64,000 nt of DNA from positions 36,547 to 100,546 of the forward strand of contig JAVXUO010001937.1 in assembly GCA_033065855.1 (NCBI GenBank), written 5' to 3'. Positions within the stretch are counted from its first letter, which is position 1, and each line of letters starts with the position of its first letter. The notes under the pieces are model-generated. The model saw nothing but the letters and a program-made list of their open reading frames with translations, was not told the origin of the DNA and ran no database searches. Both the position numbers and the translations under genes were made by a program. Source of the DNA: Escallonia rubra. Taxonomy: Eukaryota; Streptophyta; Magnoliopsida; Escalloniales; Escalloniaceae. This document shows positions 21,564 through 58,190 of this stretch, one piece after another.

Positions 21564-21665
21564 CACACAGCCCATACAGCAGGGGATCGGATATGTTGCT
21601 ACTGTTAAGAAATTTACGACATTTTGCGAGTAGACGATGATGTACATGGACAAAGTGCTAAGCTC

Positions 21666-22985
21666 ATGGAGTTTGAATCAAAGCTGAGCTTCATGGAGAT
21701 CACCTCACCGTGCCCAAAATCTGCCGTTCATCCAATCAACTATCCCTTTAACAGCCGCAACATCAGCAACACCATTGCTACCTCAAAGAAACCTGCTTTC
21801 AGAATCCATCTTTCATCACAAAAACCCAATCGCAAAACCCTGCAATTAACCAGACCACTCGAGAAGAAGAACAAAACAACAACACCCACCTGCACAAGCT
21901 CCGATATCTTGCGCTTAATAGACGCCCTCGGGTTTCCTGTGCCGATGGACGTTTACGCTTCTCTCGTCAAAGAATGCACTGTTTCTCGTGACCCGGATCT
22001 AGCCATTGAGTTGCATACGCATATTGAGCGTAGCGGAATTCGGCCTCGCTTGTCATTGCTTAACAGGATCTTGTTGATGTACGTTTCATGCGGGTGCATG
22101 GAGCATGCCCGCCAGGTGTTTGATGAAATGTCTATCAAGGATTTGCACTCGTGGGCGGCTATGATTGCTGGATATGCTCACAATAGTGGCTACGAAGAAG
22201 CTGTTGAATTGTTTGTAGAAATGCAATACCACTATTATCATGATATTGACGACATGCTTAAGTTCCCCATGTCTTGGATTTTGGTGTGTATTCTTCAAGC
22301 CTGTGTTCATACGGAGAATATTGCGCTTGGGAGTCAAATACATGGTTGGTTAATTAAGGCGGGTTCATCTAGGGATGTGTTTTTAAGTAGCTCATTGATC
22401 AACTTTTATGGGAAAAATGGATGTTTGGAAGGAGCTGATTTTGTTTTTAATCAAGTATCTCGTCGTAATACTGTAATTTGGACGGCTAGAATTGTGAATA
22501 ACTGTAGGGAAGAGCGTTTTGGCGATGTTATTGATATATACAAGGAGATGGGAAGGGAAGGAGCAAGGAAAAATAGTTTTACGGTTTCTAGTGTTTTAAA
22601 GGCATGTAGGAAGATCGAGGATGGTGGACATTGTGGACGACAGGTTCATGCGGATGCGATAAAATTAGGACTTGTATCCAAAAACTATGTGCAAAGCGTG
22701 TTGGTTGGTATGTATGGGAGATTTGGGTTGGTAACAGATGCGAGGAGGATGTTTGAGATAAATGCTGATGGGAGAAATGCAGCGTGTTGGAGCTCGATGC
22801 TCGCTGGTTATATACGAAATGGGTTCTCTATCGAGGCTATCAAGATTCTGTATGAGATGAATGTGGCTGGCTTGAAACCCCAGGAATCATTGCTCAACGA
22901 AGTTATGTCTGCTTGCGGGAGTAAAAGTATCGAGAACATTAATGGTGGATATGTACATAGAATGAGTATAGCCTCTGGGATTTGA
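21666..22985 (+). CDS. Pentatricopeptide repeat (PPR) protein, single exon, At1g31790-like
   Basis: The intact frame from the first in-frame ATG at 21666 encodes 439 aa; a second Met at 21693 would give 430 aa. The Ser/Lys/Thr-rich N-terminus (about 80 residues) fits an organelle transit peptide. PPR units then repeat to the end. Typical segments are LLNRILLMYVSCGCMEHARQ, VFDEMSIKDLHSWAAMIAGY, SSSLINFYGKNGCLEGADFV and CWSSMLAGYIRNGFSIEAIK. This is the PLS-type pattern, and no E or DYW editing domain follows. PPR proteins bind specific organelle RNAs; the target here is unknown. An upstream ORF (ATG 21637, stop 21685-21687) overlaps the first ATG and could favour the second. The hairpin at 21465-21563 and the retroelement ending at 21312 are close upstream. 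Confidence 0.88.
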   Translation: MEFESKLSFMEITSPCPKSAVHPINYPFNSRNISNTIATSKKPAFRIHLSSQKPNRKTLQLTRPLEKKNKTTTPTCTSSDILRLIDALGFPVPMDVYASLVKECTVSRDPDLAIELHTHIERSGIRPRLSLLNRILLMYVSCGCMEHARQVFDEMSIKDLHSWAAMIAGYAHNSGYEEAVELFVEMQYHYYHDIDDMLKFPMSWILVCILQACVHTENIALGSQIHGWLIKAGSSRDVFLSSSLINFYGKNGCLEGADFVFNQVSRRNTVIWTARIVNNCREERFGDVIDIYKEMGREGARKNSFTVSSVLKACRKIEDGGHCGRQVHADAIKLGLVSKNYVQSVLVGMYGRFGLVTDARRMFEINADGRNAACWSSMLAGYIRNGFSIEAIKILYEMNVAGLKPQESLLNEVMSACGSKSIENINGGYVHRMSIASGI

Positions 22986-39506: not shown

Positions 39507-39833
39507 CTATTATTATAGTTAGAATTGTCACTATTATTGCTATTAGTTTGGACAGACTATTTCTATCATTTCATCTACTGTTTTTCATCTTCATTTGTTG
39601 CTAAAAGCTAGTAATTATTACTCAAATTCATTTTTAACGACAAAAAATGGTAGAAAAATTAATAAAAAAGGTGAAAATAAATTTTTAATTTTTTTTTCTT
39701 CCAATTTTGTTATTGTTATTAAGCATACAAGTATGAGATCTTTCTACCAATACTTTGACAGTTATTACTTCCGTGTAGAATCCAAACTATTGTAGAATCC
39801 AAACTATTGTGAATATATTGCTAAACGAAAAAA

Positions 39834-40061
39834 TTTGACTGCTACTCCTGTTGGAGGAATCTTCCTTCTTCCCCCTATATAGCGACAATCAATCGTCTCT
39901 AAATATTTTTAGTGACTTTTATTTAGTAACGCTAAAAAAGTGCTGCTAATAATTATCAATAAAAGTGTTAGAAGAAAAACCACTAAAAATATTTAGCGAC
40001 CGTTAATTGTTACTTTACACGGAGTTGGGAGAAGATTCTTATAACCCGGGTAAGAGCCAAA
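39834..40061. mobile_element. Foldback MITE copy A, ~228 bp, upstream of CCD4a
   Basis: The left end TTTGACTGCTACTCCTGTTG is the imperfect inverse of the right end (AACCCGGGTAAGAGCCAAA). The interior is a long inverted repeat carrying AATCGTCTCTAAATATTTTT and TAAAAATATTTAGCGACCG. The second copy is at 53523-53749. No clear target duplication was found. It ends 408 bp before the CCD4a start. Confidence 0.82.
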
Positions 40062-40365
40062 GTTCATTCATTGCTAAATTCTTGTGTGCCCGTTATGGAA
40101 GATTTTAGCACAAACTACTGCGGGACTGTCGGAGCAAAGAATTTTCTTCAACATTTTTACCTTAGCTGCTTGACATAGATTTCTGGGTTTCATTCCATGG
40201 ATTAACAATGATTACGGGGCTTGATTTCAAAAATTAACAAGAACTGCTGGGTTGTCATTTCAAAAAACAAGAATCTTTCATGTGTGAACCACTTGTCATG
40301 AAAACTGTGTCAATATCTGGTGCTGTTGCTCCTTTTGGATGTATCGTCACTTTCCTCTCTTGGCT

Positions 40366-40469: not shown

Positions 40470-43400
40470 ATGGATTCCCTTTCATCATCTTTCCTTTCCC
40501 CATTAACCCACCCCAAGCCCCTCCTCTCCCCTGTCCCCGCCATAACCAAGCAACCAGACTTCAACTTCAACTTCAACATATCCTCCGTTAGAACCGAAGA
40601 AAAACCCCAAACAGTCACAAGAAAAAACCCACCTCCTCAACCGTTGAAGAAGCAAGAAAACTCCCAAAATGACCCACCAAGGAGATCAGCGGCGCCGGCG
40701 AGAGGAGCAGACCTGTCCTTGCCAGCGACGATATTCAACGCGCTCGACGGCATTATAAACAACTTCATAGACCCTCCTCTCCGGCTCTCCGTAGACCCCA
40801 GGCATGTCCTCTCCGACAACTTTGCCCCCGTCGGCGAGCTTCCGCCCACGGAGTGCGCCGTCGAGCACGGATCACTCCCGCCGTGCCTCGACGGCGCGTA
40901 CATCCGCAACGGCCCCAACCCGCAGTACCTCCCCCGCGGGCCCTACCACCTCTTCGACGGCGACGGCATGCTCCACTCCATCAGGATATCCGGCGGCCGC
41001 GCCACCCTCTGCAGCCGCTACGTCAAGACCTACAAGTACACCATCGAGAAGGACGCGGGTTTCCCGGTGATCCCCAACGTGTTTTCCGGGTTCAACGGGC
41101 TGAGCGCGTCGGCGGCTCGTGGGGCGGTGACGGCGGCGCGGGTGCTTGCGGGACAGTTCAATCCGGTGAACGGCATTGGGCTGGCGAACACTAGCTTGGC
41201 CCTGTTTGGGGGGAATTTGTATGCCTTGGGGGAGTCTGACCTGCCTTATACGCTGAAGGTGGCGCCGGACGGTGATGTGGTGACTTTAGGAAGGCATGAC
41301 TTTGACGGCAAGCTTGCCATGAGCATGACGGCACATCCCAAGATCGATCCCGATACAGGTTAGCCACCGGAAGTGATCATAAATCGTCACTAAAAAAAAG
41401 TAGCGACATTTTTGAAACATCTTTAGCGACAAATTGTTAGCTTCACTTTTTTTTATTAATTAAAAGTTACTAAGAATACATAACAACCATCACTTGCCAG
41501 CCACCGTACAAGAAGTTACGAGCTATTCCGGCCAAAGCTTTTCCTATTTGAAATAGACCCTTTTAAGATCGCGGTGCATATACATATACTAATTCCCATC
41601 AGTTTTTCAGTTTTAGTAACACACAAGCTATAACAATTTAACCTCACGGGGTGGGCGAAATGACAAAAGTCTTGAGTAATAATCTCGAGGTATCGAGTTC
41701 GAAATCCCGTACCAACGGAGCGGATCAAATATAAATTGCAGATTTATCAAATCCCAAAAAACAAAAAAAGAAAGCGGTACCAATTTGGTAATTGCTTTAT
41801 GCTGTTGCAAAAGTTACCCATATGATTGTACCAAACTAAAGTTTACACGTGAGTATTGTTAGTTGGGTAAACTTTTGTAGCCTAGGGGATTTAGTGACCA
41901 TCTTTATTACATCCATCTGAATTGAATATTAGACGCTGAAAGTTGAATCTCGCACTTGTTAAAAGTTGAATTTCTTCTACTTATTGAGACGTGATGAGAC
42001 ATGGTGCTTTCCGTCTCGTTAAATTTCATACGTCCGTTAATTATACCATGTCATAATGACGAGATATATATGCTATCATGGGGAGAGAGACTATGCGGTA
42101 ACAACATAGAACTCATCTCATACACTTTTAGTGGTTTTTAAATGTTACTATATATTGTTTCATCACCGGCGCTACCATTTTCAAGGACAATATTGAAATT
42201 TTGTGTCGCTGGTCCGGGATCTGGATCCGGCATCACACATGGATTTTATCTTTTGTCACAAATTAGGTGTCTTGGTCATTCACACCGTTTGCAAAAAATG
42301 ACGAGCTCCTAGGATAATTTTGAAAGCTGAACTTTTGGGTGTCAAAAACATAATTTTGAAGTTGTGGGGTGAACACATAAATTAATGAAAGTAAGGGATT
42401 TGAAATTTGCATTCTAGTTTTTTCACTTGCACCGTACTTTTACCGACAAAGTAACCGTCACTAAAGGTTATGTAAAGATTTTACTAGGATCTATCTATCT
42501 ATATAACAAAAGTGGAGCTCAATTAATTAAAAAAACAGAGGGTGCTGTCATTTTCTTTTACAGAGTATTTTCCTAGTCACAACAATGGATATCCCCATAA
42601 GACCCAACCAAGCCTATGACTGAGCAAGCATTAAGAGGCTTCTAGGCAACCAAACAATCCCCCTATAGCTTTCATCCTCATTTTTTGATCAAGTTTCAAT
42701 TTATTTAGTTTTGACAAACTTTGACTGTTACTTTAATTCGGCGATAGGTAAATAATTACAACCCCTCGTATAATAACAATCAATTATCGTTAAATATTTT
42801 TAATAAATTTTATTTAATTAAAAAAAAACTGCAATTAAAAGTTATCTGTTAGCGCAAAACATTTAGCAGCGAAATATTTTACTTACTTTTTATCTCTGCA
42901 GGTGAAGCTTTTGCCTTCCGCTACGGCCCAGTGCCTCCATTCCTCACCTTCTTCCACTTCGACGCCGACGGCAACAAGCAACCAGACGTCCCAATCTTCA
43001 CCATGACACGCCCCTCCTTCCTCCACGACTTCGCCATCACCAAGAAGCACGCAATCTTCGGCGACATCCAAATAGGCATGAACCCGCTGGACATGCTCGT
43101 CGGCAGCGGCTCTCCGGTGGGCACGGACCCGGCAAAAGTGCCCAGGATCGGCGTGATCCCGCGCTACGCGAGGGACGAGTCCGACATGCGGTGGTTCGAC
43201 GTGCCGGGGTTCAACGCTGTGCACGCCATCAACGCGTGGGACGAAGAGGATGCTGTCGTTATGGTGGCGCCTAATATCTTGTCGGTAGAGCACACGCTGG
43301 AGCGCATGGATCTGGTTCACGCGTCCGTGGAGAAGGTGAGGATTGATCTGAAGACGGGGATGGTGTCGAGGCATCCGGTTTCGACGAGGAATCTGGATTT

Positions 43401-44196
43401 TGCGGTGATCAATCCGGCTTACATGGGGAAGAAGAACAAGTAAGTTGTTAAAAACCACAAACTCTTATGGTTTGTCACCTAAAAGTGCAATAGTCATGAA
43501 TACTAATCTTTTAGCGACAAGATGATCGAAGAATTCTTGCACGATAATGATAAAGAGATTCCAACCTTCCCTGTTTACTGGCAAGCGAAACCATCCCTAT
43601 CTACTATTATTAAGCGAAACCAGCGAAACCACAACTGAGCGAACGTGCTTGGCAGAATCAACTGAGGAAGAAGATCCTGTTGAGCTTAACTCTAGTAATT
43701 GAGTAGTTTTTTAATTAAACAATTACTATTTTTTTTTTCTATTGATCAAATAACCAATAGGTTGTGCAATAATTAATTTATTATTGTAGGACGTGCAGTG
43801 ATTTTGGGATTTTGACTTTTAATGTTATGATGTAGGTACGTGTATGCAGCAATAGGGGATCCAATGCCGAAGGTGACGGGCGTAGTGAAGCTAGATGTGT
43901 CGGTGTCAGAAGGAGACCGACGTGATTGCATAGTGGCTAGCAGGATGTATGGACCGGGTTGCTATGGAGGCGAGCCCTTCTTTGTGGCGAGAGAGCCTAA
44001 CAACCTCGAGGCAGACGAAGATGACGGGTACGTGGTGTCTTACGTCCATGACGAGAACAGCGGAGTGTCGAGGTTCTTGGTCATGGATGCCAAGTCCCCG
44101 AATCTAGATATTGTGGCCGCGGTGAAGCTGCCTCGGCGGGTGCCTTACGGCTTCCACGGGCTTTTCGTGAGGGAAAGTGACCTCAACAGGCTATAG
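40470..44196 (+). CDS. CCD4: Carotenoid cleavage dioxygenase 4, copy a (chloroplast)
   Basis: Coding exons: 40470-41358, 42902-43439, 43836-44196; phases 1 and 2 match. The product is 595 aa, the usual CCD4 length. A Ser/Pro-rich plastid transit peptide covers about residues 1-80. The RPE65/CCD beta-propeller follows, with family blocks YIRNGPNPQYLPRGPYHLFD, DGDGMLHSI and LDFAVINPAYMGKK. The four Fe(II)-binding histidines are H289 (TAHPKID), H338 (FLHDFAIT), H404 (VHAINAW) and H583 (YGFHGLF). CCD4 enzymes cleave beta-carotene and related carotenoids in plastids, commonly at 9,10/9',10' or 7,8 bonds, giving beta-ionone-type apocarotenoids. The cleavage site here cannot be inferred. Exon 1 is strongly GC-rich compared with the neighbouring copy. 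No lesions are seen. Confidence 0.95.
41359..42901 (+). other. CCD4a intron 1, 1.5 kb
   Basis: GT..AG intron in phase 1. It contains AGCGAC motifs near 41366-41440. A segment at about 42760-42870 resembles the foldback MITE family (CAATTATCGTTAAATATTTT, then TTTAGCAGCG). No complete element with a target duplication could be defined. Confidence 0.6.
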
Positions 44197-45434
44197 AAGC
44201 TGCCTAAAGCTTGAACATTTGCAGCCACACATATGCAAGAAAATGGACAGTTCCATAGTTGTCAGAGACTGTTGATTCACCTTTGTGAATATGATTGCAC
44301 ATTTCAAGAAGGGCGGCCTGCATGCTACATCTTGGGCACTTTTATTTAGTTTCGGAACAAAGCATTGATGTATATAGTTGCAGCTAGTACGAGCAGCAGA
44401 TACGCATTGATCCGTCACTAAATAATGTTGCGCTAGCATCATTGTTATCCCTCAAGAAAAGTATTACATGATAAAAATCAATGTATATGTTCATATACAT
44501 TAATATACTAAATCGTAGTATATATTGTACATTTGGCACCAAATTTCTAATGTTCTTTACGTTCAATTGGTCGGTTGTTTCAAGGGAAATGCACAATCTC
44601 TAGCTAGAAAAACAAAGTAAATGGCCAATTCTGTCCATCACGGCGGTAAATTTTAACATATGTTCTCAAAGGCTGACATCTTTATTTTAAAAGTGTTTTT
44701 GCATTCTTTCACTGTGTATAACTAAGAGATATCTAGACTCTAGTACAATGAAAAATTAAACACAATTAAAAGTTAGACATAAGTGAGAAAAATAAGAGAG
44801 ACCTTCCGGAGTTAAGAGGAGATTCTATCATATCTCTCTCCTTCTCTCCCCCAAAAACATAAACAGAAGATTGGAGCTTTTCCTCTACTGCATCTAAAAA
44901 ATCGAATGCCGTTTCAAAGATAGTATAAGTGAATGAACAGATGCTAGTTAGAATCTTTGTTAACAAACATATTGCCATGATTCAAATTAACCACAAAAGG
45001 ATGAGCTTAAGTTTGGTCACCATATGAACTTTTAATCAATGTTAACGACCTTGTTGAAAGAATCTTACTGCATGGGCATCGATTCTTTCATGTGAATTTA
45101 GTAGAACTGGGCAAAGATTCAACCCCCACCACCTTAAACTCAATATTAAACTCTACCGAGGAATCCAACTGGTCGTACTCCCTTGGACCCCCCAGCAAGT
45201 AAACTTCTAGCACAAAAACTAGGTGATCAAAGTTGGCAAGATTTGTTTGTAGGAAAGCCATTTTAAAGGTTTTAACTAACACCTGTTTCCTTCAGATACA
45301 TGTCATGTCAAACTACTGTTGCTTTGAGGGACCTTGCAAGTGCTGTCACACCCTCTCTCAGAGAAGATTATAAGTAGTAGAGACCAGTAGAATCCATTTC
45401 CTGAGGAATCCATTTCCTTCCAACAATCCAAGCG
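44197..45434. other. CCD4a 3' flank and CCD4b promoter
   Basis: The 1.24-kb spacer between the tandem genes. It must supply the 3' end of copy a and the promoter of copy b. No transposon ends were found and no upstream sequence shared with copy a was evident, so the two promoters look different. Confidence 0.6.
45369..45374 (+). promoter_or_regulatory. Possible TATA box of CCD4b
   Basis: TATAAG-type sequence 60-66 bp upstream of the CCD4b ATG at 45435. Motif and position only. Confidence 0.4.
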
Positions 45435-48400
45435 ATGGATTCCTTTTCCTCCTCTTTCCTTTCCTCATTTTCCCAACCAAATCGCATTCCATGTCCTACC
45501 ACCTCTCTAACACCGTTTACACATTTTCGTTTTGTTAGTACTTCCTCCCTTAAAATTGAAAACAAATCAAAATTTACGAGTGCTAATAAGAAAATGTCAC
45601 CAGAACTGTTAAAAAAGAGAAATCCACCATCATTGCTAGTGAGTTTATTGAACGCTGTCGATGAACATATAAACACGTTCATCGATCCTCCTCTCCGACC
45701 CTCCGTGGATCCTAGGCACGTCCTAGCAGACAACTTCGCGCCCGTGGACGAGCTCCCTCCAACGGATTGCGAGGTGATACACGGCTCCCTCCCGCAGTGT
45801 CTAAACGGCGTTTACATCCGCAACGGCCCGAATCCCCAGTTTTTTCCCCGCGGGCCTCACCACCTCTTCGATGGTGATGGCATGCTTCACGCCATCAGAA
45901 TCTCCAATGGGCGAGCCACCCTCTGCAGCCGCTACGTAAAGACGTACAAGTACGCGACAGAGCGCGACGTGGGCTATGCCGTCTTTCCTAAAGTTTTCTC
46001 CGGCTTCAACAGCCTCATTGCTGCGGCTGCGCGTGGCATGGTCACGGCAGCTAGGATTTTGGCTGGACAATTTAATACAAGCAATGGCAGTGGCCTGGCT
46101 AACATCAGCTTGGGTTTCTTTGGGGGAAGCCTTTACGCTCTCTGTGAGTCGGATCTTCCCTACAGATTAACGCTGGCATCAGACGGCGATGTAGTGACTG
46201 TAGGTCGCCATGATTTTGATGGTAAGCTCATCAGGAACATGACGGCACATCCCAAGGTGGATCCCGACACAGGTGAGATATATCTAGGTTGTAGCTGCAA
46301 TCCATCCCATCGTATAGCGATAAAATATGGTCATTAAATTCAAGTCACCGACGTTTCTAATACTTCCAATGATAATTTTTAACATGCGTCAATAAAGACA
46401 TTTGACAATTACTGATTGTTGCAACACGAAGGATTATAACTAGAGTTAATTACGCCATTGATCATTGAATTTATAGGGAAATTTCATTTTAACCACTGGA
46501 CATCAAATTGTGTCAAAATGACCACTGATCTTTTAATTTTGTCCAAATAAGGTTATTCTGTTGAATTGAGCCTACCGGCGTCCCGTTAATTCCCTTTAGT
46601 GAGGAGTAAACACGTCAATTTGCCTTGACATCAATTTACTTCTTTTTTTCTATTCTTCTTTTTCTTCTCCAATTTTTCTTCCTCCATTGCTCACTAATTA
46701 CCCACCACCACGTTCTTCCTCCATTGCTCACTTACGCCATTGACCAGTGATCCCCCTTTCCAAGTGTGAAATCTCGCTTGCAAAGAGGGGTGAGAGAGAT
46801 GTCGTCGGAGATCGAAAGGTTGAGCAGATCGATGGAGATTCCTCCTTCGCCGCGACGGCGCCTGGCAAAGAGGTGGCGGAAGCGGTGGTTGGCGAGAGCT
46901 TGAAGAACGACGTGAGAGCTTACCAGGTGGCGGGCTATACACAGGAACAGGCGACGATGAAGGAGGCGCTATGTACGGATCAAGCCGATCTATTAAACCT
47001 CCGGTATACTCTGTAACGCCGGCCTCCAGGACCTTTGATGTGCCTCGTACCCATCACCAGCGCTCATCAGTGCAATAGCAAATGATTCAAAGGCTCTCCA
47101 TGGTTTGTAAAATTAGAATGGCCTCTTCCCCTGTTCAAGGAACATTGTGAACATCATCGCTTTCCCTTTGATGTTTTGCATTTATTAGGCTGCTTAAATA
47201 CACAAGCTCCGTAGTTTTGAACATCGTTCTCCTGATAATCTGCATTCTTTCAAACAAGCCCATCTAGCAGTATCAAGGTGAAAAGGGAAATGTAGTAACG
47301 TACCTGAAAAAGAGGGCGACAAGGGGACCGACGTCGATGGATCGGTGACTGGGGTGGGTAGTAGTCCGTCGATGGTGGATGGATTAGGCGATTGGTGAGG
47401 GTACGTAGTAGTCAGTCACCGGTGGATGGACCGGCGTTCGTGGAGGATCGCTGGAATTCAGGATCCCTTTTCAGGAGTTCATGCTTGTCTTCATACAGGG
47501 AAATTGTACTTGGGTCGCCGGGAAAGCATGTCTCCAAGGTAAAGGTAGGAGAGTATTTCCGAGACCATTGGAATTTGCACAGAGAGAGAGAGAGATTTAT
47601 TGAGGGACGGATTTGCCCATAAATTAAACGACTTAACGGATTTAGATTTGACGGAATCTAACAGAGTGACTTAATTGAGCGCAATTGAAGAGTTCAGTGG
47701 TCACTTTGACACAAATTGATGTCCAGTGGTCAAAATAAAATTTGCCTAATAGTTCAATGGTGTAATTAATTCTTATAACTATTGTTTCCTACAACCTAGA
47801 TAGCGCCAAATTTTTTTTTTTCCGAAACGAATACCGAAAACTTTTGAATGCAATCCTGTTATAGCAAAATCCTATAACCTTCTATAGAGCGACGATTAGA
47901 TATTGCCGAAATTTGTCCAAAAATATAGGATTAGTTACACTTTAATGTTAGGCACGCAAGCCTTTAATTTTGTCACTAGAAGTTATGTTGCCGCCAAAAA
48001 TACACGACAAATTGTCCCCAAGGAACATTTAGGCATCACTCTCCATATCCTTGCAAAACTTACCGGCCAATTAATGCATGGCTCTTGCTAGTTTACACTA
48101 CAAGAAAAGAAGGATTTAACGACGGACTTTTAGCGACGGAATAAATTCTGTCTCTAAAAGTCATTTCAGCGACAGAATAAATTCTATCTCTAAAAGTCAT
48201 TTCAGCGACGGAATAAACCGTCGATGCAAAATCCGTCGGTAAAAATATTTAACGACGGAACACTCCGTCGCTAATGTTAAAAAAAGAAATTAAATTAAAA
48301 TACTTAAAATATAATTAGAGACGGATATTCCGTCGCTAATTAATAAATAAATTCGTCGCAAAAACTTAAATATTAACGACGGATTTGAAAATTCCGTCAC

Positions 48401-50024
48401 CAAACTATTAGTAACGGGCTTTTATACGAAGGACTTAGCGACGGAAAATCCGTCGCTAAATGTTTTAGCGACGGATTTTAGGCTTTTAGCTACGGATTTC
48501 CCGTTGCTAAAAGCCTTTTTCCTTGTAGTGTTAATACTAGTGTTATGTGCATACATGAATGCTTTGATGCTTGTATATTTCCACAAGCCTAATATCTGGA
48601 TTTGTCACTACAGGTGAGGTATTTGCTTTCAGATACGGCCCAATACGTCCATTTCTGACCTTCTTCCGCTTCGACGATAGTGGAAATAAGCAACAAGACG
48701 TGCCTATCTTCTCCATGGCATGCCCATCATTCGTGCACGACTTTGCCATCACCGAAAAGCACGCTATATTCCCAGATAACCAAATAGGGATAAACCCTAT
48801 GGACATGATCCTCGGCAAGGGGTCAGCGGTCGGTGCAAACCTAGCAAAAGTGCCGAGACTAGGTGTTATCCCTCGGTATGCAAAGGATGAGTCGGAGATG
48901 AGGTGGTTCAACGTTCCGGGGTACAATGTGTTGCATGTTGTTAATGCATGGGACGACGGGGACAGCGTGGTCATGGTGGCGCCAAATATTTTGTCGATAG
49001 AACATACATTTGAGCGCATGAATTTGATCCACTTATCGATGGAGAAGGTGATAATAAACCTCAAGACCGGAGTCGTGTGGAGACATCCGGTCTCGACAAG
49101 GAGTCTGGACTTTGGAGTGATCAATCCGGCTTATGTTGGGAAGAAGAACAAGTATGTATGTAACAAATTTGGTACACAAAAATATGCAAATAAACTAAAG
49201 TGACCTAGAAATAATAAAAAATTAAAGATGAAGTTAAAGGTAATTGAGAAATGGGAAGGAGCAATTCCTAGAATTGTAGCTAAAGATCCATAATCGTTAC
49301 AAAAGGGGGTTAACATGCTTGAAGAAAACATTAAGGAGGGAAAGAGATTGTCCATTCTTGGTATGATCAAGCCTATTATTATAGATAGATTACAATGTGT
49401 AGGTTTCGTAAAAGTTTAACAAGCAAAACGAACCGATATTTTGGCTTAAGAGGAGAAAAGTACTAGATTTACCATTCTTCAGCCAAATTTAAAAAAAAAA
49501 AAAAGCCATATGAGGAATTAATGCTATCGATTATCAAGCATGCCCTTTACACCAACTTGATTTTTGACTATTATTTGCATATGCAATAACTTTAATGACT
49601 ATATTCCTAATAAAGCTTCCGCTAAGAAATTTTGTTATATTGTAGATATGTGTATGCAGCGGTAGGGACTCCAATGCCAAAGGTATCGGGGGTGGTGAAG
49701 CTAGACTTATCGGTGTCAGAAGAGGACCGATGCGAGTGTATAGTGGCTAGTCGGATGTATGGACCTCGGTGCTATGGAGGTGAACCATTTTTCGTGGCAA
49801 CAGAACCGGATGACCCTGAGGCGGACGAGGATGATGGGTATTTGGTGTCTCACGTGCATGATGAGAGCACTCGAGAGTCGAAATTCTTGGTCATGGATGC
49901 TAAGTCGTCAACTCTCAATATTGTGGCTGCCTTGAAGCTACCCGGTCGGGTGCCTTACGGCTTCCACGGAATCTTCGTGAGGGCAAGTGAGCTAAGTAAA
50001 GCTCCGGAAACTGCCCAAGCATGA
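45435..50024 (+). CDS. CCD4: Carotenoid cleavage dioxygenase 4, copy b (chloroplast)
   Basis: Coding exons: 45435-46272, 48614-49151, 49646-50024. Phases are identical to copy a and the product is 584 aa. The transit peptide is shorter and diverged; similarity to copy a becomes strong from SVDPRHVLADNFAPV onward. All four iron ligands are kept: H272 (TAHPKVD), H321 (FVHDFAIT), H387 (LHVVNAW) and H566 (YGFHGIF). Changes near the active core relative to copy a include HVVNAWDDGD for HAINAWDEED and MACPSF for MTRPSF. The C-terminus is extended (SKAPETAQA). The coding sequence has no stops or frameshifts. It is less GC-rich than copy a. Intron 1 is 2.34 kb and about three quarters transposon; its retention would cause an early stop at 46335-46337. 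A distinct carotenoid specificity is possible but not shown. Confidence 0.94.
46443..47772. mobile_element. Non-autonomous MULE, 1.33 kb, 9-bp TSD, in CCD4b intron 1
   Basis: The 9-bp TTATAACTA lies at 46434-46442 and again at 47773-47781. The left end GAGTTAATTACGCCATTG matches the reverse complement of the right end, GAATTAATTACACCATTG. The inverted repeats extend about 150 bp (CCACTGGACATCAA, GTGTCAAA). The GC-rich interior (46740-47620) has a gene-fragment look but no intact frame. Long TIRs and a 9-bp duplication define the Mutator superfamily. Confidence 0.92.
46795..47110. other. Possible captured host-gene fragment inside the MULE (Pack-MULE-like)
   Basis: The 46795-47015 region is GC-rich, with a Met-initiated frame (ATG 46800, MSSEIERLSRSM-like) and overlapping frames, unlike the AT-rich TIRs. 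The frames break after 30-90 codons. I do not recognise the parent gene. Pack-MULE status is a hypothesis. Confidence 0.3.
48096..48530. mobile_element. Non-autonomous CACTA element, 435 bp, 3-bp TSD, in CCD4b intron 1
   Basis: It starts CACTACAAGAAAAGAAGG and ends CCTTTTTCCTTGTAGTG, so both ends read CACTACAAG inward. TTA flanks both sides (48093-48095 and 48531-48533). The interior consists of repeated AGCGACGGA / TCCGTCGCTA motifs in both orientations. CACTA ends plus a 3-bp duplication are diagnostic of the En/Spm superfamily. It ends 83 bp before exon 2. Confidence 0.93.
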
Positions 50025-51770: not shown

Positions 51771-53522
51771 TATGGAAAAAGCCGTTTGTCATGTTGTCTA
51801 GAACATGAAAAATAAAAACAAGAAAATAGTGACCAAATGAGCGGTATAGTTTGATCTCACGCAAAAACCTTGTTCTACCTTTTAATTTTTTTGCCCAATA
51901 TATGATGGTCGGTGGTCCAAAGAGTAAAAAACATACAAAATGAAATTCTAATTAATTAATGTTACAATACAGTGACATTTTCGTAATTATTTAAATATGT
52001 TTATCTATTATCTAAAAATTTTTAAAAAAAGTTTCGACAAAAGTTGGTGGGTGACGTGCCCCCACCAGTCATGTGGGTGGTCCGCCCCTCACTTATAGTT
52101 TTTAAACACATATATGTAATTCATATACGAATTTGAGTAAGTGTTATATGACTGAAAGAGTTGCGGGAATTAAAAAAAAAGGGATAGTATATCTGTAATG
52201 AATTGAAAAGGTGTCTTAGAATTTAAGATACTGAAATTTATTTCGTACTAAGAAAAAGAGGTTTTTCTTAGCAAATTAAATGAGCACGCAAGTAAGATAA
52301 GGCGATAATATAAGTTACTATAGCACATAAATTAGAAAAGTGTCTTGGAATATAATTAAGATACTAAAATTTATTTCGTACTAAGAAAAGAGTTTTTCTT
52401 AACAAATGAACACGCAAGATAAGGTGATAATATGCGTTACAAGCACGACATGATTGCCAGTAAGTAATAACAAAAATCGAATACAACAATGAGTTAAATA
52501 ATTTTATTAAAAATGGACATCGGATAAAAGGCTAAATCAATATGCATTTTACTGGAAATGTCCTTGAAGATTGATGAGATAATTTCACACTAGAGTTTGA
52601 ACTAGCCGACTACATCTTGTCAAGCCACACTTTACACTCAAAACATGGATTACAACGACAAAAAACAAATAAAAATGGGACAAGAAGAACCTTTGATAAT
52701 GATCATAGCACTCTGAACATCTTGCAATACTTGCCTTGAACAAAATTACTTTAATTTTGTTTCTTTATAAATAATGCGACCTAGAATTGTGAGTAAATAT
52801 AGAAATTTCAACAAAGATGCATTTAACCTTATTTTGAACATGATCTTGATTTTAAAAAGCAGGTCATATAACGTTCGGGATATTTCTATTTACCAAATTT
52901 AGCGAGAACAAAGTCGATGAGCTAAAATTCTCTTGTAACATGATAAACAATTGTATACATTTTACTTTCTTACATTTAGACAGTTCATATACTTCTTTCC
53001 ACATAAAATGAGTATTTTGAGGCGAGAAGGTTTTCATGTTTCTTGAAAAAAGGTTGTGTTATGTACAAAACATTTTTCAAAATTTTAAACAACATCAAGG
53101 AATTTAAAATTTTCGTATCGGCAAGCAAACCCAGGCCAATATCTAATTTAGGTATTCATGACATTGGAAAAATGGATTATAAGTTGAAATTATGTTTAAA
53201 AGCCCAAACTTTTTTGAGAATGCAACACAATGCCTTCACTATAAGAATCCTTGTTCTTCTTGTCGCCGAATACACATTGAGAGATGCTTTGATAGAACTA
53301 TTTACGCACTATTGAAAGTTATCTTAACCTATAGCTCAAATTTATTGTAGTATATATAAAAATTATTGTCATAGGAAAAATGTGTGTTAATATAAATTCA
53401 TTTTTTTTCTTCTTCATGTTTGTTGAGTAAGCTTGAAATAATTGGGTACAGATTGTCACTCCGGTTATTGTGAGGGGATTAAGCCCTACTATACATATGA
53501 GAATTCATGTAAAGGAAAAAAA
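51771..53522. other. AT-rich intergenic DNA with a 130-bp-offset duplication
   Basis: No supported gene. The 90-codon frame at 53043-53315 has no recognisable similarity. It is AT-rich and probably fortuitous. The duplication at 52200-52440 is described separately. Confidence 0.55.
52200..52440. repeat. Tandem duplication, offset ~130 bp, two copies
   Basis: GAAAAGGTGTCTTAGAAT near 52205 matches GAAAAGTGTCTTGGAAT near 52335. Both continue with AAATTTATTTCGTACTAAGA, TTTTTCTTA and ACACGCAAG. Confidence 0.88.
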
Positions 53523-53749
53523 ATGGCTGCTACCCCGGTTGAAGGAATCTTTCTCCTACTCCTTATATAGCAACAATCAATCGTCTCTAGATGTTTCTAG
53601 TGATTTTTATTTAGTGACGCTAAAAAAATATTGGTAATAATTGTCACTGAAAGTGTTAGAAGAAAAGTCACTAGAAACATTTAGCGACTATTAATTGTCA
53701 CTATACACGGAATTTGGGGAAGATTCCTACAATCCGGGTAGGAGCCAAA
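53523..53749. mobile_element. Foldback MITE copy B, ~227 bp, downstream of CCD4b
   Basis: Same family as 39834-40061, in the same orientation. The left end is ATGGCTGCTACCCCGGTTG, and the right end has GGGTAGGAGCCAAA. Shared interior: CAACAATCAATCGTCTCTAG, then GTCACTAGAAACATTTAGCG. Nearly equal length and good identity suggest related insertions. Confidence 0.85.
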
Positions 53750-53789
53750 GTTTGTTCTCGTGTAAATACCCTTGAGGGAGAATGGAACA

Positions 53790-55192: not shown

Positions 55193-58190
55193 TGAAGAGG
55201 TGTCAAAGGGCCTGGTCCAAGTCAAATCCCTTGGCCCAAAATTTAGGGCCGGGCTTGTGCTAAACCCGGGCCTAAATAAAAAAATAATTGTTTTTAAATT
55301 TCTTTTTATTCATTTTTTTACGGTAAACTTAAATTTAAGATAAATGTGTTCATAAGCCCTCCTCTTTTTATCCGGATTCGGGACCAGTTGCTTGTAAACA
55401 AGTAGGCAAAATTACCTATTTCTTTTATATATGTATAAAGGATTAATTTTTTAAAAAAGGTGAGAAAAAGTATCTATTTTGCTTGTACATAGCCACATTC
55501 TCATGTGCATTATTTACTTTGAATATATATAATTTGTTTGAAAATAATCTACGGCAAAAATGTAATCTATATTTTAGGAAATAATTTATTCAAAAAACTT
55601 GAAAAAAGGAAAATTTCTAATCATCTGGAAGATCTTCAAAGCTCGAATGGTTGCTCTTCCTATCATCAACTGGTTTATCTTGTCCCAGTATTTTGGATTA
55701 GGATAATCCTTCTGACATATACATAAATCGAGTGACTAGGGATTAAATTGACTCTTCATGTCATCCAACATCCTCACGCTCGCTGAAAATGCCGACTTCG
55801 AAGCAACCGTGGAGGCTTGCATTGGTTATACATCCCGGGCAATTTGGGATAAAGTTTTATAAATTTTTGCATTTTTTGTTTCCAAAAAGTTAAGGAATCA
55901 AAATTAATCTGCTCATCCATTGGTAATGAAGAATAATGATCAGTATTTGCATATAAACCAATTTCATTAAAAAAGAAAAAGGAAGACAAACCTGTAAAAC
56001 TATAAGTACTCCGCTGTCAGCAGAAATTTTGATATAAATTACAAAGATCTTCAAATGACTTACTCACTTTCTTTATAAGATTGGTTGTGTCAGCTGCCAT
56101 GTAGCACATTTTTTTAGATATTTTTACTATTGAGATATCCGCGCCATGCAACTTTAACCTAGGATCCAAACAAGTGGTGATAACAAAAACAAGAAGCAAT
56201 TCCGCCCAATATTTTTTAAACTTAATGTCCATTTGTTCGACTATACCCCGAAAGGATCTTATATCTCTCCATTTCGCTAAAATGCTAGCAATTTTTAGAA
56301 TTTTTATCATAGCGATAAGGGACGTGGGATAGTATGCCAGACAATAGAATGGTAGACGTGTAAAATACCTCCAAAAATTCAACTAGCTATGCAGTAATCT
56401 ACCAATCATCTTGACCTGACAAGCTTTGTGGAAACATAATTACTATGTAGTGAACATACACTTCTTTTTATACCATAACATGTAAAAGTATTTGATATGT
56501 GGAGTTCCACATATGCACGACATTTGTAAATGGTCTCCTACGAGACAAACTATATTGAACACACGAAACTTTAAATTGCTGTATTTTCGGACCCAAACAA
56601 TTACGTCGCCATATCCCTTATTTTGTGAAGAATATCTCCAGCAGCAGCTAAATCATCTTGAACAATTAAATTAATTATATGGCAAATATATTGAACATGA
56701 AATAATTTGCTTCACGTTTAGGTCTAAGGTTCGCCTTTAAGACTTCAAGAGCAACTAAATTGTTAGAAGCATTATCAGAACTGATACTCATAATATTATC
56801 CTTTATTTTAAAGGTGTTGCATACTCAGACTATAATATTAGCAACGTTAATTGTATCGTGCAGATAAGGAAAGAGTTCTAAACCAATGATTCTCTTGTTC
56901 ATAAGCCAATCAGAATCAATCTAGTGGGCCGCCCCACACAAGCATAATTAACTAGAGAAAAAAAATAGATTTTAAACATCAGAAGTAAGACTAACTTTAC
57001 CATCAAATTTATCAAAATAATAAATCAAGCGTCTTTTAGCAACATTAAACTGTCTAAGTGCATCAAATTTAGACGTGTCATCAAATTTAGACGTGTTTCT
57101 ATGAACTTTTTTATACAAAGGTTGCACGTAAGTTTTCATATATCTAGAATACTTATCATTATCAGTTAAATAAGAAGCTTGTTCACCTTGAACAATAAAT
57201 TCAGCAAGATCGTCGTCTCTCTAATTATTAATTGATAACTTACCCTCAAAAGATAACTGTATTTGGGTAGAATCGACATGGCCTTAATTAGCTACAATTG
57301 TCAGGAAATGCGCATTCAGATGTCCATTACCACTACCATACGAATGTCATCAACTGTAATATCGTCAAAATGATTTTAACATTGAGCGTTCTTTCTTTCT
57401 TCCCACCCCGTTTGGACATAATTGCTCGGTCCTTCATCATGATGACCACTCATCGGGATAAAATTTTATCCTGGAATAGTGGTGTCGCAAATCGAGCTGC
57501 GTCCTTAACTAAAATGATGGGTATCTTGTAAAGTTGTATATTCAAAATCTGGAATATTTTCATTAATCTGAATAAATTTTTGGGTATCTATACCTATTAG
57601 TGATGGATCTTGAAATTCTGGTGCTTGTGATATTGAACATTTTTGCCTATATGATCTAAATAATCTTGACATATTTGACGTTAAAATTGTTTGACTAATG
57701 AAAAATAAAACTGGTAAGAGTAATTAAATAAAAAAGAATAAAAGTACTAAATAATACTTGTAATTGAAAATTGGAGAGGGTTAATACTTAGTAACAAATA
57801 AGAATGGTAGGAAAGCTTGTAGAATTTAGATGAGAGAGAGTGAGAAGATTGGTGTAAAAATGTGAAGAGAGGAGGTGAGTTTATAAAAATTTTAAAGTTC
57901 ACAAAAGACCAATTTACCCCACTTCCCTCCACATTTCATCAAGTGGTCGTGCTACTTTTGTGCTGCTTACTGAACAAACAATTGGATTTCTTATCCCCCT
58001 ATAAACTAGCCGTGTATAGTTGTTGGGGAGGGTAAAAGTACATAAAAGAGTTGTTGGAATCTTGTTGGACGAAAATACCCCCAAACTAGCCGTTATATAG
58101 TTGTTGGGAGGGTAAAAGTGAAATTTTTAGAATTATAGCCATTTGAGGGAATATGGTTGTTTTTTAAATTTTCGGGCCGGGTCAAATCCG
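55193..58190 (-). mobile_element. hAT transposon with decayed transposase, right end damaged
   Basis: The left end has AGGTGTCAAAGGGCC and GGGCCGGGCTTG. The right side at about 58172-58188 has GGGCCGGGTCAAATCCGAG, inverted relative to the left subterminal region. GTGTCAAA/GGGCCGGG ends are common in plant hAT elements. The coding remnants at 55770-57540 lie on the minus strand. An LTR retrotransposon begins directly after the right side, at 58196, and may have removed the true terminus. Confidence 0.65.
56017..56950 (-). pseudogene. Decayed hAT transposase (RICESLEEPER-like)
   Basis: Minus-strand frame 56017-56382 carries EQMDIKFKKYWAELLLVFV followed by TCLDPRLKLHG, the hAT region just before the dimerisation domain. 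Upstream on the same strand, 56480-56940 encodes fragments such as LMNKRIIGLELFPYLHDT and ISSDNASNNLVALEVLK, matching the RNase H-like core. Several stops and frameshifts break it. A BED zinc finger could not be confirmed. Confidence 0.75.

Follow-up and report, generated by a model that had tools for sequence, protein, structure and literature searches.

Two CCD4 genes in tandem

The stretch of DNA analysed here (64,000 nucleotides, C2516:36547-100546; hereafter the window) contains two complete CCD4-type genes, CCD4-A and CCD4-B, which lie head to tail on the plus strand with 1238 bp between the stop of the first (44196) and the start codon of the second (45435).

40470-44196, plus strand: CCD4-A, whole gene, 595 aa
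40470..41358, plus strand: CCD4-A exon 1, start codon at 40470
41359..42901, plus strand: CCD4-A intron 1, phase 1, 1543 bp
42902..43439, plus strand: CCD4-A exon 2; the stretch 42886-43449 recurs, whole or shortened, in hAT-type elements elsewhere
43440..43835, plus strand: CCD4-A intron 2, phase 2, 396 bp
43836..44196, plus strand: CCD4-A exon 3, including the stop codon
45435-50024, plus strand: CCD4-B, whole gene, 584 aa
45435..46272, plus strand: CCD4-B exon 1, start codon at 45435
46273..48613, plus strand: CCD4-B intron 1, phase 1, 2341 bp
48614..49151, plus strand: CCD4-B exon 2, 538 bp
49152..49645, plus strand: CCD4-B intron 2, phase 2, 494 bp
49646..50024, plus strand: CCD4-B exon 3, including the stop codon

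Each gene consists of three exons separated by GT-AG introns at matching places in the protein, the first in phase 1 and the second in phase 2, and exon 2 measures 538 bp in both. The two frames are free of stops and frameshifts and all splice sites are canonical. An earlier sequence-only reading had described two complete tandem CCD4 genes with the same intron positions and phases and without lesions; the gene models confirmed this description, coordinates included. A chance origin of the pair is ruled out by the full-length domain matches and the common introns. The copies differ in third-position GC (0.735 in CCD4-A, 0.544 in CCD4-B). When the window was searched with tblastn, the only credible CCD4-like stretches were the six exons of these two genes and no third CCD4 was found, nor did any part of the window match an Rfam family at gathering scores. 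Neighbouring gene pieces in the window belong to a UVB_sens_prot gene (PF04884, 4256-6174), a Cupin_8 gene (PF13621, 10149-10856) and a PPR gene (21609-22985).

Domains, ligands and termini

Both proteins match the PF03055 profile over positions 2-468 of 469 (CCD4-A, E 1.9e-117, 393.6 bits; CCD4-B, E 1.1e-118, 397.8 bits). Among solved structures, the best relatives in a search with CCD4-B were VP14 (3npe), which we take to be the maize protein, and a carotenoid 9,10-dioxygenase (9luz). All four iron histidines are in place, at H289, H338, H404 and H583 in CCD4-A and at H272, H321, H387 and H566 in CCD4-B, the latter aligned to VP14. The positions that we presume to hold the second-shell glutamates of VP14 align with E255, D462 and E522 in CCD4-A and with E238, D445 and E505 in CCD4-B; the middle place is Asp in both proteins and in 9luz, and Glu in VP14. 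With the full domain, four histidines and three acidic residues, CCD4-A and CCD4-B have the predicted make-up of PF03055 carotenoid cleavage oxygenases.

The two proteins part company at three places named in the sequence-only reading, and at each the difference is real. Beside the third ligand, CCD4-A has HAINAWDEED and CCD4-B has HVVNAWDDGD, exactly as stated; the C-terminal end is RL in CCD4-A and KAPETAQA in CCD4-B; and the N-terminal part, a putative transit peptide, is only 41% identical. Within the first 70 residues, Ser and Thr number 14 in CCD4-A and 22 in CCD4-B, and acidic residues 6 and 3, respectively.

Divergence between the copies

Overall, CCD4-A and CCD4-B are identical at 70.7% of 577 aligned residues, a figure that rises to 75.2% of 501 residues in the core and falls to 40.8% of 76 aligned pairs in the N-terminal part. 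The description of the genes as intact and clearly diverged is borne out by the uninterrupted models and this 75% core identity. In the core, dN was 0.14 and dS 1.40 by NG86, and 0.136 and 2.37 by YN00, giving a dN/dS of ~0.1; this calculation, proposed in the earlier reading, points to purifying selection on average. Constraint is much weaker over the 76 N-terminal pairs (dN 0.42, dS 1.12 by NG86). The two genes have diverged under purifying selection as an average over both branches, a pairwise ratio that cannot show constraint on each copy singly.

Fourfold-degenerate sites differ at 103 of 190 positions, a single 16-base match, in opposite orientation, is all that the introns of the two genes have in common, and the compared upstream stretches share just two short weak matches. 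Since silent sites are near saturation and neither introns nor upstream stretches retain meaningful similarity, the duplication is old; the same near-saturation is why no date is given. These features also rule out a recent duplication or an assembly duplicate.

Age of the duplication and the changed copy

As a reference we used a provisional Arabidopsis CCD4 sequence of 595 residues, not a database entry, so that all comparisons with it are leads only. Over 494 sites, CCD4-A is 75.7% and CCD4-B 68.8% identical to this sequence, and CCD4-A is equally near to it and to CCD4-B (75.4% of 496). With this provisional sequence as outgroup, 60 changes are found in B only and 26 in A only. Three NCED outgroups from the same genome put the two copies about level, with 20, 21 and 16 changes in A only against 17, 17 and 15 in B only; the pair is 38-41% identical to these NCED-like proteins, as against 69-76% to the provisional Arabidopsis CCD4.

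A phylogeny had been suggested as a way to date the duplication. With the provisional sequence, it excluded the grouping of CCD4-B with Arabidopsis CCD4 (AU p 0.004) and left the other two topologies tied, A with B at 0.515 and A with Arabidopsis at 0.502. The near-equal likelihood of these two, together with the equal distance of CCD4-A from Arabidopsis CCD4 and from CCD4-B, would fit a duplication that predates the divergence of the Arabidopsis lineage, in which case the orthologue of Arabidopsis CCD4 is A rather than B and the lineage of B was lost there. We hold this reading tentatively, at somewhat under even odds: a faster-evolving CCD4-B would look alike, the AU values tie and the Arabidopsis sequence is provisional.

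Published tandem CCD4 genes

The pair belongs to a kind already published, with tandem CCD4 copies in tomato, Citrus, Gardenia and Nyctanthes. Two papers (PMC3808326, PMC5133782) describe CCD4 genes as commonly duplicated in tandem, which makes the arrangement less remarkable by itself. According to the sections of the review PMC5133782 that we consulted, CCD4 copies are frequently in tandem, tomato CCD4a and CCD4b being an example (Solyc08g075480 and Solyc08g075490 in PMC7302004), and two introns, as in these tomato genes and in Osmanthus CCD4, are exceptional. The tomato pair resembles CCD4-A and CCD4-B in being tandem with two introns per gene. For multigene CCD4 families, whose members are often in tandem, the review gives 85-98% as the usual identity, compared with 71% overall here.

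The most similar published pair that we found is NatCCD4.1 and NatCCD4.2 of Nyctanthes arbor-tristis, described in excerpts of PMC12575119 as having the same orientation, lying <2600 bp apart and being 68.62% identical; CCD4-A and CCD4-B likewise share their orientation, at 1238 bp and 70.7%. Nyctanthes is credited with eight CCD4 genes, whereas two were found in the present genome. NatCCD4.1 makes crocetin dialdehyde, while NatCCD4.2, with intact ligands, is reported in these excerpts to give no product on three carotenoids in E. coli and to be absent from the flower transcriptome.

Other systems are more distant. Gardenia jasminoides CCD4a-d form a tandem array with divergent function, but comprise four genes that, in the text seen of PMC7302004, were duplicated after the Coffea split, whereas silent sites in our pair are near saturation. 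The Citrus copies CCD4b1/CCD4b2 and CCD4c/CCD4d lie on one chromosome and are attributed to tandem duplication, but are 45 kb and 20 kb apart and intronless except for CCD4d; CCD4b2 and CCD4d are shorter in orange (parts of PMC3808326). In Osmanthus, according to part of PMC8087690, CCD4b and CCD4c are numbered consecutively on a single chromosome and are abnormal in structure. Across the portions of this literature at hand, some tandem pairs include a copy whose activity has changed or was not detected.

Insertions in intron 1 of CCD4-B

Intron 1 is longer in CCD4-B (2341 bp) than in CCD4-A (1543 bp), and the CCD4-B intron is made up mostly of two insertions.

46443..47772, no strand assigned: MULE-like non-autonomous element in CCD4-B intron 1, 1330 bp
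48096..48530, no strand assigned: CACTA-like short element in CCD4-B intron 1, 435 bp

The first has terminal inverted repeats of ~100 bp (81%) and a 9-bp target duplication, TTATAACTA, at 46434-46442 and 47773-47781. The second has the ends CACTACAAG and a 3-bp target duplication, TTA. Both superfamily names are based on the end and duplication features typical of MULE and CACTA elements. Within the MULE-like element, the minus strand is open for 119 codons (46694-47053), a frame that could be captured coding DNA. Elsewhere in the window, a short inverted-repeat element occurs in two copies (84%) at 39822-40064 and 53510-53752, one of them ~400 bp upstream of the CCD4-A start codon, and a remnant with a hAT-like RNase-H domain (PF14372) lies at 56017-56382 on the minus strand.

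Two transposon insertions in one intron could be taken to mean that CCD4-B looks intact but is barely expressed or inactive, a paralogue on its way out while CCD4-A does the work. NatCCD4.2, for which the consulted text of PMC12575119 gives neither a flower transcript nor a product, provides a precedent and makes an intact frame weak evidence of activity. We nevertheless consider such a fate unlikely for CCD4-B, whose frame is uninterrupted by stops or frameshifts and which keeps canonical splice sites and every ligand; the core dN/dS of ~0.1 for the pair also speaks against it, though with silent sites near saturation.

CCD4 relatives across the genome

The whole assembly (566 Mb, 3222 contigs) was searched with the PF03055 profile and with the CCD4-A protein. 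The profile gave 84 matches, and those beginning at the profile start were three NCED-like frames, the first exons of CCD4-A and CCD4-B, and one gene on contig C1716 whose first piece is 27% identical to CCD4-A. The protein gave 39 matches, with all 66 of 66 candidates scored. Identity above 60% was confined to the three exons of CCD4-A, the three of CCD4-B, six long exon-2 pieces and a piece of 27 codons on contig C349. The long pieces on C2189 and C79 each gave a single match, and those on C1281, C2003, C3142 and C3144 each gave a second for the end in another frame. The three NCED-like frames were 38-40% identical, and the remaining matches were short (29-58%). Neither search found a CCD4 gene besides CCD4-A and CCD4-B in this genome. 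Beyond it, eight stretches of viral contigs fit one of six peptide patterns and none encodes a relative; among bacterial and archaeal genomes, one of 56 pattern matches is a relative (33%).

Copies of CCD4-A exon 2 in hAT-type elements

All six long exon-2 copies sit inside elements of ~950-1070 bp.

L011 (contig C2189), 3970-5040: hAT-type exon-2 element, keeps the exon end and donor site
L013 (contig C3142), 3538-4518: hAT-type exon-2 element, acceptor AG lost
L014 (contig C79), L015 (contig C3144), L016 (contig C1281) and L017 (contig C2003): further hAT-type elements with most of CCD4-A exon 2
L046 (contig C349), 1828-1902: remnant, final 75 bases of the captured stretch (94.7% identity)

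The captured stretch, 42886-43449, comprises CCD4-A exon 2 with 16 bp of the end of intron 1 and 10 bp of the start of intron 2. The six loci carry this stretch or its first 470 bases, L015 without the first 10, and by blastn they are 94-96% identical to CCD4-A and 73-75% to CCD4-B. The elements start with CAGTGTTATTAAA and finish with its inverted form; a pattern search located both ends in five of six, the right end being altered in L015. Four of these five have an exact 8-bp target duplication, and L011 has none (4 of 8 bases). We take such a duplication and such terminal ends to be hAT features, on which the label hAT-type is based.

Several features of the copies bear on their history. 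First, the exon end with its donor site is lost in five of six and kept in L011, and the acceptor AG is kept in five of six and absent in L013. Second, one base change at window position 43167, common to all six, makes a stop codon in the exon and argues for a single capture followed by copying. Third, each of the six has one or two further copies of the exon-start string GTGAAGCTT upstream of the exon, and the 300 bases before exon 2 in CCD4-A itself have none; the repetition might be a trace of template switching. Lastly, a base table comparing the elements, L046 left out, with CCD4-A and CCD4-B listed 29 differences, 13 of which (43356-43371) were dropped as misalignment where the five short copies lost the exon end. 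In the other 16, the elements have the base of B and A changed in four, A has the base of B and the elements changed in eight, and four fit neither.

A genome search with one exon-2 element returned the six loci, CCD4-A itself and at least 20 further places (40 of 1656 candidates scored). These further places match the right third of the query and include L046, whose part of the captured stretch the query lacks. At the other loci examined from this search, blastn found no exon piece. Six relatives without the long exon piece (L052-L057) have 8-bp duplications, five exact and one with 7 of 8 bases, and the middle consisted of other DNA in all three element relatives compared. In L052, a stretch that looks coding closes with KLCDELRVK and a stop, and may be a further captured piece of a gene.

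In its ends, its duplications and its host coding DNA, the family fits a non-autonomous hAT-type transposon of the Pack-hAT kind that captured CCD4-A exon 2. Pack-TYPE transposons of the hAT superfamily are described in the available text of PMC8903248 as non-autonomous and carrying host coding DNA, as the exon-2 elements do; the annotation there covers rice and maize, and CCD4 capture is not among the cases that this text describes. In the literature collection searched we found no paper joining 'Pack-TYPE' and 'carotenoid', and we make no wider claim of priority. The transposon copies are the less expected part of our results, although their kind is known from other plants.

If the exon-2 copies were transcribed as antisense or hairpin RNA, small RNAs might silence CCD4-A and, because CCD4-B differs at about a quarter of its bases in exon 2, spare CCD4-B, so that a transposon would set the balance between the paralogues; we regard this as very improbable. 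The copies preserve a trace of the earlier sequence of CCD4-A, and they set a practical trap, as seven other places may attract reads from its exon 2.

Proposed roles of the pair

In the reading that we favour, with a rough probability of 0.8, an old unequal duplication left two intact, carotenoid-cleaving CCD4 genes in tandem, CCD4-A being nearer to the standard CCD4 and CCD4-B most likely differing in expression. Both would encode plastid non-haem iron dioxygenases. CCD4-A most likely cleaves at the 9,10 / 9',10' positions, like the Arabidopsis and potato enzymes, whose 9,10 activity is given in part of PMC12825410. CCD4-B, altered beside the third ligand and in its N-terminus, may also differ in substrate or cleavage site. 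Judged from sequence, different cleavage or expression of the two genes is plausible; that both are active and each specialised is a reasonable suggestion reaching beyond the sequence.

A more specific alternative, in our view improbable, is that CCD4-B cleaves at the 7,8 / 7',8' positions and makes crocetin dialdehyde or beta-citraurin. Such CCD4 enzymes arose in the Gardenia tandem array (PMC7302004) and are described in Citrus (PMC12825410) and in Buddleja, Verbascum and Nyctanthes (PMC12575119), and the two-intron CCD4 genes reported for Osmanthus and tomato (PMC5133782) lend it some further support, as far as the excerpts of these papers go. However, the cleavage site cannot be read from residue changes beside a ligand alone.

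The wider interest of the pair is that carotenoid content, colour and scent are under the control of CCD4 genes in many plants. With no further CCD4 gene found, the genome offers a clean two-gene system for separating the roles of an old tandem pair.
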